From: Lacticaseibacillus mingshuiensis
GTDB taxonomy: Bacteria > Bacillota > Bacilli > Lactobacillales > Lactobacillaceae
Reading direction: 5' to 3'
DNA: 64,000 bases
Assembly (NCBI RefSeq): GCF_016861785.1
Contig: NZ_BOLS01000008.1
Location: forward strand, 1-64,000
The notes under the pieces were generated by a model that saw only the letters and a list, made by a program, of their open reading frames with translations, had not been told where the DNA came from and searched no databases. The translations under genes were made by a program, and so were the position numbers. Shown one piece after another: positions 4,261 to 64,000 of this stretch; within the stretch, counting starts at the first letter, position 1; each line of letters starts with the position of its first letter.

Positions 4261-4444
4261 CAGTAAGCTCCTCTATTATGGTGCTATTTTGACGATAGAC
4301 ATCGTCGGTCGTGTAGTCCCTTGTCCAAGTATATCCATTATAAATTAGGAACTCAATGAACTGCCCAACATAGACTGCGCAAAAATAGACTGCCTCCAGA
4401 TAGATACATGTATCGCTTTTTTCGTAGATTTGAGTTAAACAAAA
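4261..4444. other. Intergenic stretch between gene stub and island terminator
   Basis: This is moderately A/T-rich and contains a TATAAT-like box in the upstream region of the stub gene (minus strand) and the short palindrome gatacatgtatc near 4402-4413. I see no gene in it. Confidence 0.4.
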
Positions 4445-4493
4445 AAATCCCCGCCAACTCAGCCCTCAATCGGCCCAAACTTGGCGGGGATTT
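4445..4493 (-). terminator. Intrinsic terminator at the right end of the left island
   Basis: The 13-base arms aaatccccgccaa (4445-4457) and ttggcggggattt (4481-4493) are perfectly complementary, and the minus-strand transcript ends in a T run. It would stop transcription from the integrase gene. A terminator occupies the equivalent position in the right element end (12944-12977). Confidence 0.7.
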
Positions 4494-4501
4494 TGGCGGG
4501 G
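4481..4501 (+). repeat. Arm-site-like motif, copy 1
   Basis: The sequence ttggcggggattttggcggg is a near copy of 12982-13002. It starts 110 bases left of the attachment core at 4591, and the copy at 12982 starts exactly 110 bases left of the core at 13092. A degenerate third copy lies at 4664-4684, inside the 3' end of the integrase gene. Confidence 0.55.
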
Positions 4502-4549
4502 AACGTAACAATTCCCCCGCCAATCATATCCTTTGCATCTCCCGAAAGC

Positions 4550-4567
4550 GCCGTTAAATCAACATTC
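4550..4567 (+). repeat. 18-bp direct repeat near attachment core, left copy
   Basis: The 18 bases beginning gccgttaaatcaacattc are identical to 13051-13068 and lie 41 bases from the attachment core, the same distance as in the right copy. Confidence 0.8.
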
Positions 4568-4590
4568 CGGGTTCAATTTACATGTACCTT

Positions 4591-4602
4591 TTATTCCCAC
4601 TC
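4591..4602. other. Left attachment site core (att) of the guaA element
   Basis: The sequence ttattcccactc matches 11 of 12 bases of ttattcccattc at 13092-13103, which encodes the last codons and stop of guaA on the minus strand. Integration into the 3' end of guaA is an established habit of many genomic islands. The core bounds the element on its integrase side. Confidence 0.7.
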
Positions 4603-4643
4603 AAGAGAAAGTGCACTCATAGGAATGCCTACATATCAACGTT

Positions 4644-60823: not shown

Positions 60824-62080
60824 TTAGTCGGCCACGTTGACTAGGAAGTATTTCTTCTTCCCGCGCCGCACGATCACATATTTGCCATCGAAGTGACTCG
60901 TTGGATCGATCACCGCATCAAGGTCCTGCTCACGCTGGCCATTGACCGTGATGGCCCCGTTTTGTACGTCTTCGCGGGCCTGGCGCCGCGAGGGCTCGAT
61001 GCCGGTGGTGTCGACCAGCCAGGCGATGATATTTTCAGCCGCGGCCGGCGACGACTTTTGCGGGACCTGGGAAAAGCCCTGCTTGATCTCGTCTGCGGTC
61101 AGGTCCTGAACATCGCCGGAAAACAGCGCGGCGGAGATCGCTTCGGCCTGCTTGACCGCCTCTTCGCCATGAACGAAGGCGGTGACTTCCTCGGCAAGGC
61201 GCCGCTGCGCTTCCCGCTTTTCCGGATGCGTCTGCATGGCTTCGACCAATTCTGCGATCTCGTCTTGCGACAGGAAGGTGAAAAACTTGAGGAACTTTTC
61301 CACATCGGCGTCGTCTTGGTTGAACCAGAACTGGTAGAACTCATACGGCGAGGTCTTCTCTGGATCCAGCCAAACTGCGCCGCCAGCAGACTTGCCGAAC
61401 TTGGTACCATCCGCCTTGAGCATCAGTGGGTTGGTCAACCCGTAAACCTTGGCGTCCGCCCCTTCGATCTTGTGGATCAGATCGATGCCAGCGGTAATAT
61501 TGCCCCACTGATCGGCGCCGCCCAGCTGCACCTGCACGTCCTCGTTTTGATAAAGTTTGAGAAAATCCACCGATTGGAGAATCTGGTACGTGAATTCGGT
61601 AAAGGAGATGCCGCTTTCAAGCCGGCTGGCGACAACCTCCTTGGCCAGCATTTGATTGACCGGGAACAGTTTGCCGTAATCGCGCAGAAAATCCAGCAGC
61701 GAGATCTTTGACAGCCAGCTGTAATTGTCAACGATCTCAAAGTTGTCGCGGCCAAACATCCGCTCCATCTGCGCCGTCAGCTTCTTGGCATTATTTTGAA
61801 TCGTTTCCATCGACTGCAACACACGCTCGGAATTGCGACCGCTGGGATCCCCGATCGAGCCGGTCCCACTCCCGATCAAGATCACCGGCTTGTGGCCCAT
61901 CAGCTGAAAGCGTTTAAGCATCATAAACGGAATCAGATGCCCGACATGAAGCGAGTCCCCAGTCGGATCAGTTCCGACATAAATGCCGACGTGTTTTTCC
62001 GTCGTTAATTTCCGCAAGCCTGCCTCATCCGTCATCTGGTTGAGCGCACCGCGCCATGCGAGTTCATCTAAGATATTCAT
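60824..62080 (-). CDS. tyrS: Tyrosyl-tRNA synthetase
   Basis: TyrS charges tRNA-Tyr. The 418-residue class I enzyme has the HIGH-type motif HVGH at about 45-48, the KMSKS-type KFGKS near 230, and a C-terminal S4 RNA-binding domain. The start follows ggagg. A T-box leader controls it. Confidence 0.97.
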   Translation of the reverse strand: MNILDELAWRGALNQMTDEAGLRKLTTEKHVGIYVGTDPTGDSLHVGHLIPFMMLKRFQLMGHKPVILIGSGTGSIGDPSGRNSERVLQSMETIQNNAKKLTAQMERMFGRDNFEIVDNYSWLSKISLLDFLRDYGKLFPVNQMLAKEVVASRLESGISFTEFTYQILQSVDFLKLYQNEDVQVQLGGADQWGNITAGIDLIHKIEGADAKVYGLTNPLMLKADGTKFGKSAGGAVWLDPEKTSPYEFYQFWFNQDDADVEKFLKFFTFLSQDEIAELVEAMQTHPEKREAQRRLAEEVTAFVHGEEAVKQAEAISAALFSGDVQDLTADEIKQGFSQVPQKSSPAAAENIIAWLVDTTGIEPSRRQAREDVQNGAITVNGQREQDLDAVIDPTSHFDGKYVIVRRGKKKYFLVNVAD

Positions 62081-62108
62081 GCTTTCCTCCATTTGTTTTC
62101 ATTGGCCG

Positions 62109-62335
62109 AAAAAAAGTCCCTGCTTGCAATTTGCAAACAGGGACGAGTCATCGCGGTACCACCCTTGTTATGGCCGAGGCCATCACTTGACGATGCATAG
62201 CGGCATCACCCGCGACCAAAATGACTGAGCGTAATTTCGCGTGTTGTTGCGGGATCGGCTCACAGCGACTGCCGACTCTCTGGGACCGCGCAACAAAGCT
62301 ACTGAACTCTTTCGGTCGAATTATTACCGTCAGTG
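62109..62335 (-). promoter_or_regulatory. T-box leader of tyrS
   Basis: On the minus strand the T-box core AGGGTGGTACCGCG (62153-62166) is followed by a strong terminator (gtccctg / cagggac, T run at 62109-62116). A plausible Tyr specifier TAC lies at 62233-62231 in the upstream stem. Uncharged tRNA-Tyr would switch the terminator off. Confidence 0.93.
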
Positions 62336-62682
62336 TAGCATAGCGCTGCGGCAAAGAAAAGAGCGGGCCTAGAATCCTCAAACGGGCAGCGCCACCCCTT
62401 TTTCCCTGCGGCGTCCCTTGCCCTGGATCATTTCATTGACACGGGAAGACGCCGACCACAACTGCTTCGGCTCTTCTTTACATTTGAGATCGTGATCATC
62501 CGGCAAACTGTGTTCTTTATTGAGCGAATGATTTATGCGGATGCGGGAAGCAAATTGCTACTGCAGAGACAAGTTCTCAGAGGTATTTTGCGTCGATAAT
62601 ATCCGTCAAAATTGGGACTTTATAGAAATCTCTCGAAGGATTCTTTTACGCAAGTTGTACAGACTTTTTACAATCAAACCAG
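62336..62682. other. Intergenic between tyrS leader and RNA candidate
   Basis: No convincing gene. A weak frame starting at 62535 runs into the RNA candidate and has no ribosome site. Confidence 0.4.
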
Positions 62683-62711
62683 TTGACGTATCCGCTTACT
62701 GGGGTTATTAT
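62683..62711 (+). promoter_or_regulatory. Promoter of the orphan RNA candidate
   Basis: TTGACG (62683-62688), a 17-base spacer and TATTAT (62706-62711), overlapping a TATAAT at 62709-62714. Confidence 0.6.
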
Positions 62712-62716
62712 AATCT

Positions 62717-63010
62717 CGACACTGAGAGGCGTGGAGGAGCTGGCCACGAGTTCTCTCCCAGCGTCGGTCAGTCCGGCGGGAGACAACCCGCGACCCACCC
62801 CGAGCGACGCAATGACGGTTACCTGCAGTAAGGGGGTAACCCAAAGGGCTAAACGGACCCAGTGCTGAAAGGCACCGGAAAAATGTACCACCTGCATTTC
62901 TAACTGAATAAGTTCCCCTAACACCGACGGGAGGAATCTCGAAAATGAAGAGGGAAAGGGATCCAACCTAAAATTTGGCAGGCCGGAGCACGCTTCGGCC
63001 TGTTTGCTGT
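62717..63010 (+). ncRNA. Putative structured ncRNA, family not recognised
   Basis: After a near-consensus promoter comes about 290 bases of GC-rich, non-coding sequence with four clean hairpins: gagag/ctctc with inner cgtgg/ccacg (62724-62757); gcgtcg/cgacgc (62761-62810) enclosing gcggg/cccgc; ggttacc/ggtaacc (62817-62841); and gtgc/gcac (62862-62875). It ends at a caggccg/cggcctg hairpin (62979-63002). It is followed only by a gene on the opposite strand, so it is not a riboswitch for a neighbour. It does not match 6S, SRP, tmRNA or RNase P motifs I know. Confidence 0.5.
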
Positions 63011-63025
63011 GCCCTCAGATAATAA

Positions 63026-63085
63026 AACACCCCAGAGACGCTCAGGCGTTGCCACTTTGCGCTACCTGAACGTTCCTGGGGTCCC
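63026..63085 (-). terminator. Intrinsic terminator
   Basis: A long stem bounded by ccccag / ctgggg with a T run on the minus strand, after the ArsR gene. Confidence 0.75.
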
Positions 63086-63100
63086 TACGACCATGCGATT

Positions 63101-63436
63101 TTACAACCCCTGACTCTGCCGCCGCAGTGCCCGGGTCAGGCGCTCGAGTCGGGCGATCGTGTCATCGAGTGTTAGATAATAGTAGACAACATTGCCCACC
63201 TGCCGAGAATCAACCATGCCGATGTCGCGTAATGTCTTGAGATGATGCGACGTTGCCGGCTGAGACAGGCCAATTTTCTCCGCGAGGTCGTTGACCTTGA
63301 TACCGCGATCCCCGGATACTTCCCCCAGTAACATGATCAGCTTCTGCCGATTGGCGTTCGACAACGCGTTCAGATGACCAATGTCGAGCTTGAATTCATT
63401 CAATGCCTCTTGCTGCGCCGCAGAATACTCCGTCAT
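63101..63436 (-). CDS. ArsR-family transcriptional regulator
   Basis: This 111-residue winged-helix repressor has LNALSNANRQKLIMLL and the recognition segment VNDLAEKIGLSQPATSHHLK. No metal-binding CxC motif is visible, so it may sense redox or a non-metal ligand. Start at ATG 63436 after ggggagg. It is divergent from apbE. Confidence 0.88.
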   Translation of the reverse strand: MTEYSAAQQEALNEFKLDIGHLNALSNANRQKLIMLLGEVSGDRGIKVNDLAEKIGLSQPATSHHLKTLRDIGMVDSRQVGNVVYYYLTLDDTIARLERLTRALRRQSQGL

Positions 63437-63532
63437 GATGACGCCTCCCCAAAGTTTCGGTGCTGATACAGCCTGTGCGTTGTTGGGCTCTGGTGCTCCT
63501 CCGCACCCAGATGTTGTTGGGCTCTGGTGCGC

Positions 63533-63616
63533 ATGGTCGAGACAGCTAGGGACGCCCTTCACTCGGTGGCAAGGCCCGCCACCAAGCGCTGGGCTAGCCT
63601 ACCTGCTCGACCATGA
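63533..63616. repeat. Diverged copy of the covarying hairpin repeat
   Basis: The arms catggtcgag (63533-63542) and ctcgaccatg (63607-63616) are perfectly complementary and enclose the conserved core cactcggtggcaagg...ccaagcg. The outer and middle stems differ from the copies at 27181-27387 by compensating changes. Confidence 0.75.
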
Positions 63617-63672
63617 CCGCGCACCTCCGCACCCAGATGCAGGTCAATTGTTGCCGCAACGCGAAAAAACGC

Positions 63673-63701
63673 TTACACTAGATGTACAGGTTCAGTATAA
63701 C
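63673..63701 (+). promoter_or_regulatory. Promoter of apbE
   Basis: TTACAC (63673-63678), a 17-base spacer and TATAAC (63696-63701), 24 bases before the start codon. Confidence 0.6.
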
Positions 63702-63724
63702 ACTGATCAAAGGAAGGTATTCTC

Positions 63725-64000
63725 ATGAGTGAATATGTGTCGTTCAAAGCACTTGGCGCGACCAACGACTTGACGATCTATGGTGGCGGCACCCCGGAAA
63801 CATTTGACCACAGCATCGCACTGGTCTCAGCCTATTCCCGCCTCTTATCCTTTTATGATAAAGACTCCATCATTAGCCAGATCAATCAAAACGCTGGCGT
63901 GGCGCCGGTGACAATCGAGGTGCGCCCTGTTTTCAACCTGATCGCACGGGCCGTGGCCTGGAGCAAGCGCGGCGCGGGGTACAATGCGCTGATCGGGCCG
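63725..64000 (+). CDS. apbE: FAD:protein FMN transferase (ApbE), partial
   Basis: The first 92 residues are present; the gene runs off the window. The start follows aaaggaagg. The pattern KALGATNDLTIYG, then SRLLSFYDKDSIISQINQNAG, matches the ApbE N terminus. ApbE attaches FMN to secreted or membrane flavoproteins, including extracellular electron-transfer reductases. Confidence 0.85.
   Translation, partial: MSEYVSFKALGATNDLTIYGGGTPETFDHSIALVSAYSRLLSFYDKDSIISQINQNAGVAPVTIEVRPVFNLIARAVAWSKRGAGYNALIGP

Follow-up and report, generated by a model that had tools for sequence, protein, structure and literature searches.

A 64,000-nucleotide (nt) window from Lacticaseibacillus mingshuiensis (contig NZ_BOLS01000008.1) carries, next to tyrS, one of seven paralogous copies of a conserved 295-nt sequence. 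This sequence probably specifies a lineage-specific multicopy ("sibling") noncoding or regulatory RNA, a single product made from seven promoters and partly homogenised by gene conversion. A preliminary description of the tyrS-adjacent locus presented it as an orphan structured RNA candidate belonging to no nameable family. That observation is confirmed, while its main feature, the seven copies, was missed, and "orphan" is wrong in the sense that the locus has six paralogues in its own genome. The accompanying interpretation is supported in part. With seven copies, and these homogenised, the finding is better than described; it is also narrower, because two species carry the RNA gene.

A search of the L. 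mingshuiensis assembly with positions 62683-63030 returned seven matches that are 90-100% identical. Lacticaseibacillus yichunensis has seven copies too, six complete and one cut by a contig end; the cut copy was omitted from the alignment used here, which holds 13 of the 14 copies. A DNA search of 60 genomes found matches only in these two species, seven in each. An exact 22-base pattern occurred in six stretches among the genomes of 84,980 species, all from L. yichunensis, in a collection that may exclude the L. mingshuiensis genome itself. A covariance model of the alignment matched two of 30 genomes in the genus, two of 251 in the family and two of 395 in the order, each time the same two species. 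The family and order searches used stricter filters than the genus search, and the order search scored four candidates per genome and reported four of the seven copies for each species. Very diverged relatives were possibly missed because of these filters and the few candidates scored. A model search for such relatives at expectation values (E) up to 10 found no match in 20 loci from other genomes (13 of 28 tyrS loci and seven of 28 gdpP loci). On the plus strand, Rfam 15 gives no match, whether at the gathering score or with E allowed up to 10. A search for Lacto-usp yielded no match, and its control was silent as well. In the literature, the RNA is named nowhere among the matches listed, where two papers on unrelated subjects mention L. 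yichunensis. On these searches, the RNA gene appears so far to occur only in two sister Lacticaseibacillus species.

The copies share abrupt boundaries. In both species, the alignable core starts at GACACTGAGAGG, 6 nt after a -10-like hexamer, and in all 13 complete copies it ends at TTTGCTGTGC, beyond which the flanks differ. In the alignment, all 14 copies are preceded by a -35-like and a -10-like hexamer. Upstream of the core start, TTGAYG and the -10 hexamer are kept, and the spacer and more distal sequence differ among copies. The promoter-like sequence claimed for the tyrS locus is confirmed: it matches 10 of 12 consensus positions, has a 17-nt spacer and is the best of four promoter-like sites in 61500-64000 (mean of 2.0 in shuffles). 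The plus-strand transcript would begin at GACACUGAG. The genome holds seven highly similar putative RNA genes, where two or more would suffice for a multicopy sibling small RNA (sRNA), and each has its own promoter as judged from sequence.

The pattern of divergence among copies places the edge of the high-identity block at the presumed transcription start. Paralogous cores are 90-100% identical (21 pairs, L. mingshuiensis), whereas similarity among their promoters (-45 to -1) is 53-89%, so that the conserved block starts at the presumed +1. The clearest case is the pair C5 and C10a, whose cores are identical over 294/294 positions; their flanks agree at 36% (downstream) and 15% (upstream) in global alignment, and upstream just a 41-nt stretch adjoining the core matches. 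The same two cores differ from their syntenic L. yichunensis partners at 17 and 18 positions, respectively. Between orthologous loci, identity is 65-89% upstream (seven pairs), 75-86% downstream (six pairs) and 94-96% in the core (six pairs). The mean number of core differences is 15.2 for orthologues (six complete pairs), 17.0 within L. mingshuiensis (21 pairs, range 0-30), 18.9 within L. yichunensis (15 pairs, range 1-31) and 17.9 between different loci of the two species (36 pairs). Two of 720 possible pairings, the syntenic one included, are at least as close as the syntenic pairing. Homogenisation is therefore only partial, since the syntenic pairing remains among the best. The four-gamete test, applied to 325 pairs of informative sites with gaps treated as a state, is positive in 173 of them. 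These mosaic haplotypes show sequence exchange between copies. Gene conversion at the DNA level together with selection on the RNA explains the mosaic pattern; selection alone leaves the mosaics unexplained, and conversion alone leaves unexplained the conservation edge at the presumed transcription start.

Structure and coding potential also point to an RNA. The core seems RNA-like rather than a protein gene and is apparently untranslated. Copies differ by one-base insertions, no kept reading frame of protein-gene length was found, and no product of more than eight residues is identical in all 13 copies on either strand. Closed open reading frames (ORFs) within the aligned stretch reach no more than 10 amino acids (aa) on the plus strand and 14 aa on the minus strand in the poorest copies. 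The plus-strand fold of 62718-63020 has a free energy of -114.6 kcal/mol (z -3.23), a stability that none of 100 shuffles matches, and the minus-strand fold of the tyrS copy gives a z of -2.35 (1 of 100 shuffles as stable). Across the 13 copies, z ranges from -1.7 to -4.3 (30 simple shuffles each). The consensus structure contains 82 pairs, and 99.2% of its cells are paired, compared with 29.8-48.9% in slid controls. Two pairs changed on both sides, in 11 cells; none of 500 shuffles reaches 11, and slid controls show none. The hairpins of the preliminary description, including the closing one, all recur in the 13-copy consensus (Table 1), and it is credible that the local stems of the modelled RNA are kept. 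Such conservation in close relatives had been set beforehand as a point on which the candidate could fail. It was found in L. yichunensis, and the 28 genus genomes without a match offered nothing to compare.

Several observations weigh against the sibling-RNA reading. The folding z is weak (-1.7) in two of the 13 copies, helix 1 fails in two of 13, and the overall layout varies from copy to copy when each is folded singly. Invariant pairs make up 68 of the 82. Only two of the 82 pairs are compensated, a number that 264 of 500 shuffles reach, and the 11 further pair types fall below the shuffled mean of 12.0, with all 500 shuffles reaching 11. Covariation is thin because only two sister species carry the RNA, and the compensated pairs are thin evidence for the stems. 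At three of the seven loci (C8, C10b and C14), no clear terminator follows the core within 100 nt.

In the proposed model, the seven genes are dispersed and have separate sigma-70-type promoters and flanks, yet all would make the same structured RNA of about 295 nt, and each transcript would carry a copy-specific 3' tail. The copies may be kept alike since the cell uses the pooled product, an effect of dosage, and the diverged promoters would let several signals feed one output. The RNA would act in trans, most likely regulating mRNAs or a protein through the invariant, predicted single-stranded segments of the core, AATGAC, CCACC and GATCCAA.

The alternative that survives best, though we consider it unlikely, is a non-autonomous mobile or interspersed intergenic repeat, similar to miniature inverted-repeat transposable elements (MITEs) or enterobacterial repetitive intergenic consensus (ERIC) sequences, that is promoter-like and fold-prone by chance and functionless for the cell. 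Dispersed copies and a narrow taxonomic range fit such a repeat, and the genome does hold a true interspersed repeat of about 140 bp with at least 51 matches. The tyrS locus also suggests insertion. Five of 25 other loci in the genus keep the tyrS-arsR synteny, with the aligned gene ends 327-384 nt apart compared with 1012 nt here, and the intervening alignable sequence at those five is the T-box. The segment was inserted here or, less simply, lost in the others. TyrS of the two sister species is 98% identical and at most 86% identical to that of other genomes. The simplest reading is that the RNA gene and its upstream region reached the tyrS locus in the common ancestor of these sister species; this empty-site comparison covered the tyrS locus, one of seven. 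However, the promoters (see above) and upstream parts (15-70%, global alignment) have diverged around cores that stay 90-100% identical, with the edge at the presumed transcription start. This uneven decay counts against a dead repeat, because a dead repeat would decay evenly. In addition, flanking sequence pairs all seven loci between the species, six of them with complete cores on both sides and the seventh with one core cut by the contig end, and no locus is filled in just one of the two. The alignments were inspected by eye for terminal repeats and target duplications, with no dedicated search. A phage, plasmid or viral origin is rejected: plasmids and phages gave no match, exact-pattern scans of viral contigs gave no match in three of five cases and one contig each in two, and the covariance model gave no match across the 10,528 bases of those two contigs that were searched.

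The repeat of about 140 bp lies at 63495-63650 in the window. Its matches, at least 51 including itself, show 68-100% identity; of 90 candidates, 40 were scored. Some of its copies adjoin each other, and it is absent among the RNA's own matches.

A less probable alternative is that the core is a small-protein gene or a dual-function RNA, namely the mRNA for the putative 8-residue peptide MKRERDPT, whose remaining sequence would serve as leader and trailer. The earlier statement that the locus has no ORF holds for long shared frames, but it overlooked this 8-codon ORF, the sole one whose product is identical in all 13 complete copies. The Shine-Dalgarno-like GGGAGGA ends 9 nt upstream of its ATG, and the ORF falls within the longest invariant run of 47 nt (P = 0.024 for random placement of the 40 variable columns). 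Conversely, eight codons would hardly call for 295 nt of conserved structure, GGGAGGA sits in a predicted hairpin, and pairing of the core with the 16S rRNA 3' end is not clearly above chance (30 of 200 shuffles as good). Because the invariance extends outside the codons, it leaves no synonymous changes on which a test of coding could rest. The 8-codon ORF with its GGGAGGA is a real alternative of low weight.

A very improbable variant of the exchange scenario is homogenisation through the RNA itself, in which reverse-transcribed copies recombine into the seven genes, making the RNA family self-homogenising and perhaps once self-spreading. It is proposed because the exchanged block begins at the presumed +1 and leaves the promoters out. 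However, gene conversion of the ordinary DNA kind, confined to the sequence that the copies share, accounts for this +1-edged pattern as well.

It is most improbable of all that the RNA is a diverged known housekeeping RNA, 6S RNA above all. Length and self-contained layout fit 6S RNA, and no 6S RNA was found in the L. mingshuiensis genome with RF00013 at E 0.001 or 0.1. However, 18 other genus genomes that lack the present RNA likewise give no RF00013 match at E 0.1. Ten of 30 Lacticaseibacillus genomes match below the family cut-off (L148-L157), and the other 20 give none at E 0.1. The missing 6S match thus reflects model sensitivity, since other genomes of the genus are also unmatched or below the cut-off, and the Rfam 6S model is weak for Lacticaseibacillus. 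In lactic acid bacteria, 6S RNA is reported to be a single-copy gene located close to rarA or to a gene of the universal-stress-protein type (PMC8414754); here the core has seven copies and no Rfam match, as reported above, and neither gene is among the 18 neighbour proteins scanned. The suggestion of a housekeeping RNA in the preliminary description is unsupported, with 28 of 30 genus genomes lacking a match, and a widespread housekeeping RNA is likewise not supported.

Three further ideas were dropped. An invariant GUACCACC is complementary to the T-box motif GGUGGUAC, and two copies adjoin T-boxes (tyrS and brnQ), but a T-box decoy was abandoned because 75 of 200 shuffled cores pair with the motif as well. 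A role in pairing with the 16S 3' end was rejected on the shuffles given above; both pairing tests used simple, not dinucleotide, shuffles. A guide RNA with a constant scaffold and a variable 3' guide was set aside; the 100 nt past the core are 75-86% alike in orthologues, within the upstream-flank range of 65-89%.

Table 1. Features of the tyrS-adjacent RNA locus.
Feature	Position	Strand	Evidence
Upstream region shared with copy C10b (beside brnQ), 68% identity, part of duplicated unit	62467..62717	+	flank-to-flank blastn
-35 hexamer TTGACG; TTGACG or TTGATG in 14/14 copies	62683..62688	+	promoter scan, alignment
-10 hexamer TATTAT; the other copies have TATTAT or TATACT in this position	62706..62711	+	promoter scan, alignment
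Conserved RNA core, 295 nt, presumed transcription start to TTTGCTGTGC	62718..63012	+	copy searches, alignment
Hairpin, consensus helix 2, 11 pairs	62731..62759	+	consensus fold
Long irregular arm, helices 3-5, GCGTCG...CGACGC, inner GCGGG/CCCGC	62761..62810	+	consensus fold
Hairpin, helix 6; compensated pair U-A to C-G in 5/13; loop varies in sequence and length	62817..62841	+	
Hairpin, helix 9; compensated pair A-U to G-C in 6/13	62859..62878	+	
Shine-Dalgarno-like GGGAGGA, within longest invariant stretch (47 nt)	62929..62935	+	
Putative 8-codon ORF, MKRERDPT; identical in 13/13 complete copies	62945..62971	+	
Closing hairpin with 12 pairs (helix 14); tetraloop is CACG in some copies, GAGA in others	62977..63004	+	
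Copy-specific downstream inverted repeat CCCCAG...CTGGGG, without T run; also in L. yichunensis orthologue	63030..63081	+	

The closing hairpin is present as described, but it is unconvincing as a terminator, as it has no T run and is absent from the terminator scan list. The inverted repeat downstream of it is a possible transcript end. The nearest downstream gene (arsR-like, 63101-63562) lies on the minus strand, in agreement with the orientation first described. Strong terminator-like hairpins occur 79-93 nt past the core in four of seven loci (C3, C5, C10a and C4), and three orthologues of terminator-bearing loci have one at 76-87 nt. For C10b, a terminator-like hairpin was found at 378 nt, beyond the brnQ T-box. 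Since no terminator was found between them, copy C14 could be the leader of the aldo/keto reductase gene downstream of it (L026 81-983, minus strand). That gene appears in two pieces, of 154 aa (with a Pfam match) and 134 aa, and the split would be a frameshift or assembly error.

Upstream regions fall into groups by blastn: C3/C5 are 69% identical over 232 nt, C8/C10b 68% over 266 nt, and C10a/C14 78% over 1091 nt, the last including a duplicated gene without a known family. The C4 upstream region resembles other copies only in its last 44-58 nt. These groupings indicate that the copies are old duplicates with decayed surroundings. Downstream flanks are 13-50% alike among the loci of one genome. 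The 18 neighbour proteins scanned share no common function, and the named ones are mixed (transporters, GdpP, a glycosidase, an aldo/keto reductase and others). The duplicated gene beside C14 and C10a (L026 1645-2475; L023 6858-7850) has no Pfam, PHROG or NCBIfam family. The tyrS T-box leader at 62136-62324 (minus strand) is full length and scores 73.8 bits, below the gathering score of 93. A second T-box precedes brnQ, downstream of C10b (L024 7073-7312, 69.7 bits). Elsewhere in the window, the Listeria sRNA family rli38 of Rfam matches at 4441-4605 (minus strand) with 57.6 bits, above the gathering score of 49.

The putative RNA resembles several known systems. LhrC of Listeria monocytogenes, also a Firmicute, is described as five almost identical copies of 111-114 nt (PMC4132741), and thus likewise comprises several near-identical noncoding RNA genes, every one of them with a promoter. 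Unlike LhrC, the present RNA is about 295 nt long and was detected in just two species. In LhrC, UCCC motifs are reported in loops and single strands (PMC4132741), whereas the two UCCC-containing stretches are paired in the consensus fold here. Qrr of Vibrio and the csRNAs of Streptococcus also form sets of related sRNA genes whose products overlap (PMC4211561), but these have known targets and regulators. That review uses neither "gene conversion" nor "concerted" as a term (PMC4211561). By description only, a Lactobacillus salivarius RNA is another long, lineage-restricted lactobacillus RNA without an identified function (PMC5643018). It is 520 nt long and megaplasmid-borne, whereas the present RNA has seven copies and lies among chromosomal-type genes (tyrS, gdpP).

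If transcribed, the sibling RNA proposed here would represent a new RNA family of about 300 nt, with seven copies and no match in the rest of the genus. Its evolutionary signature would be unusual, with dispersed genes kept alike while their promoters diverge. The question of why bacteria keep sibling sRNAs, for dosage or for separate inputs, would become testable in harmless bacteria. More broadly, the family would show that lineage-restricted multicopy RNAs can escape Rfam.
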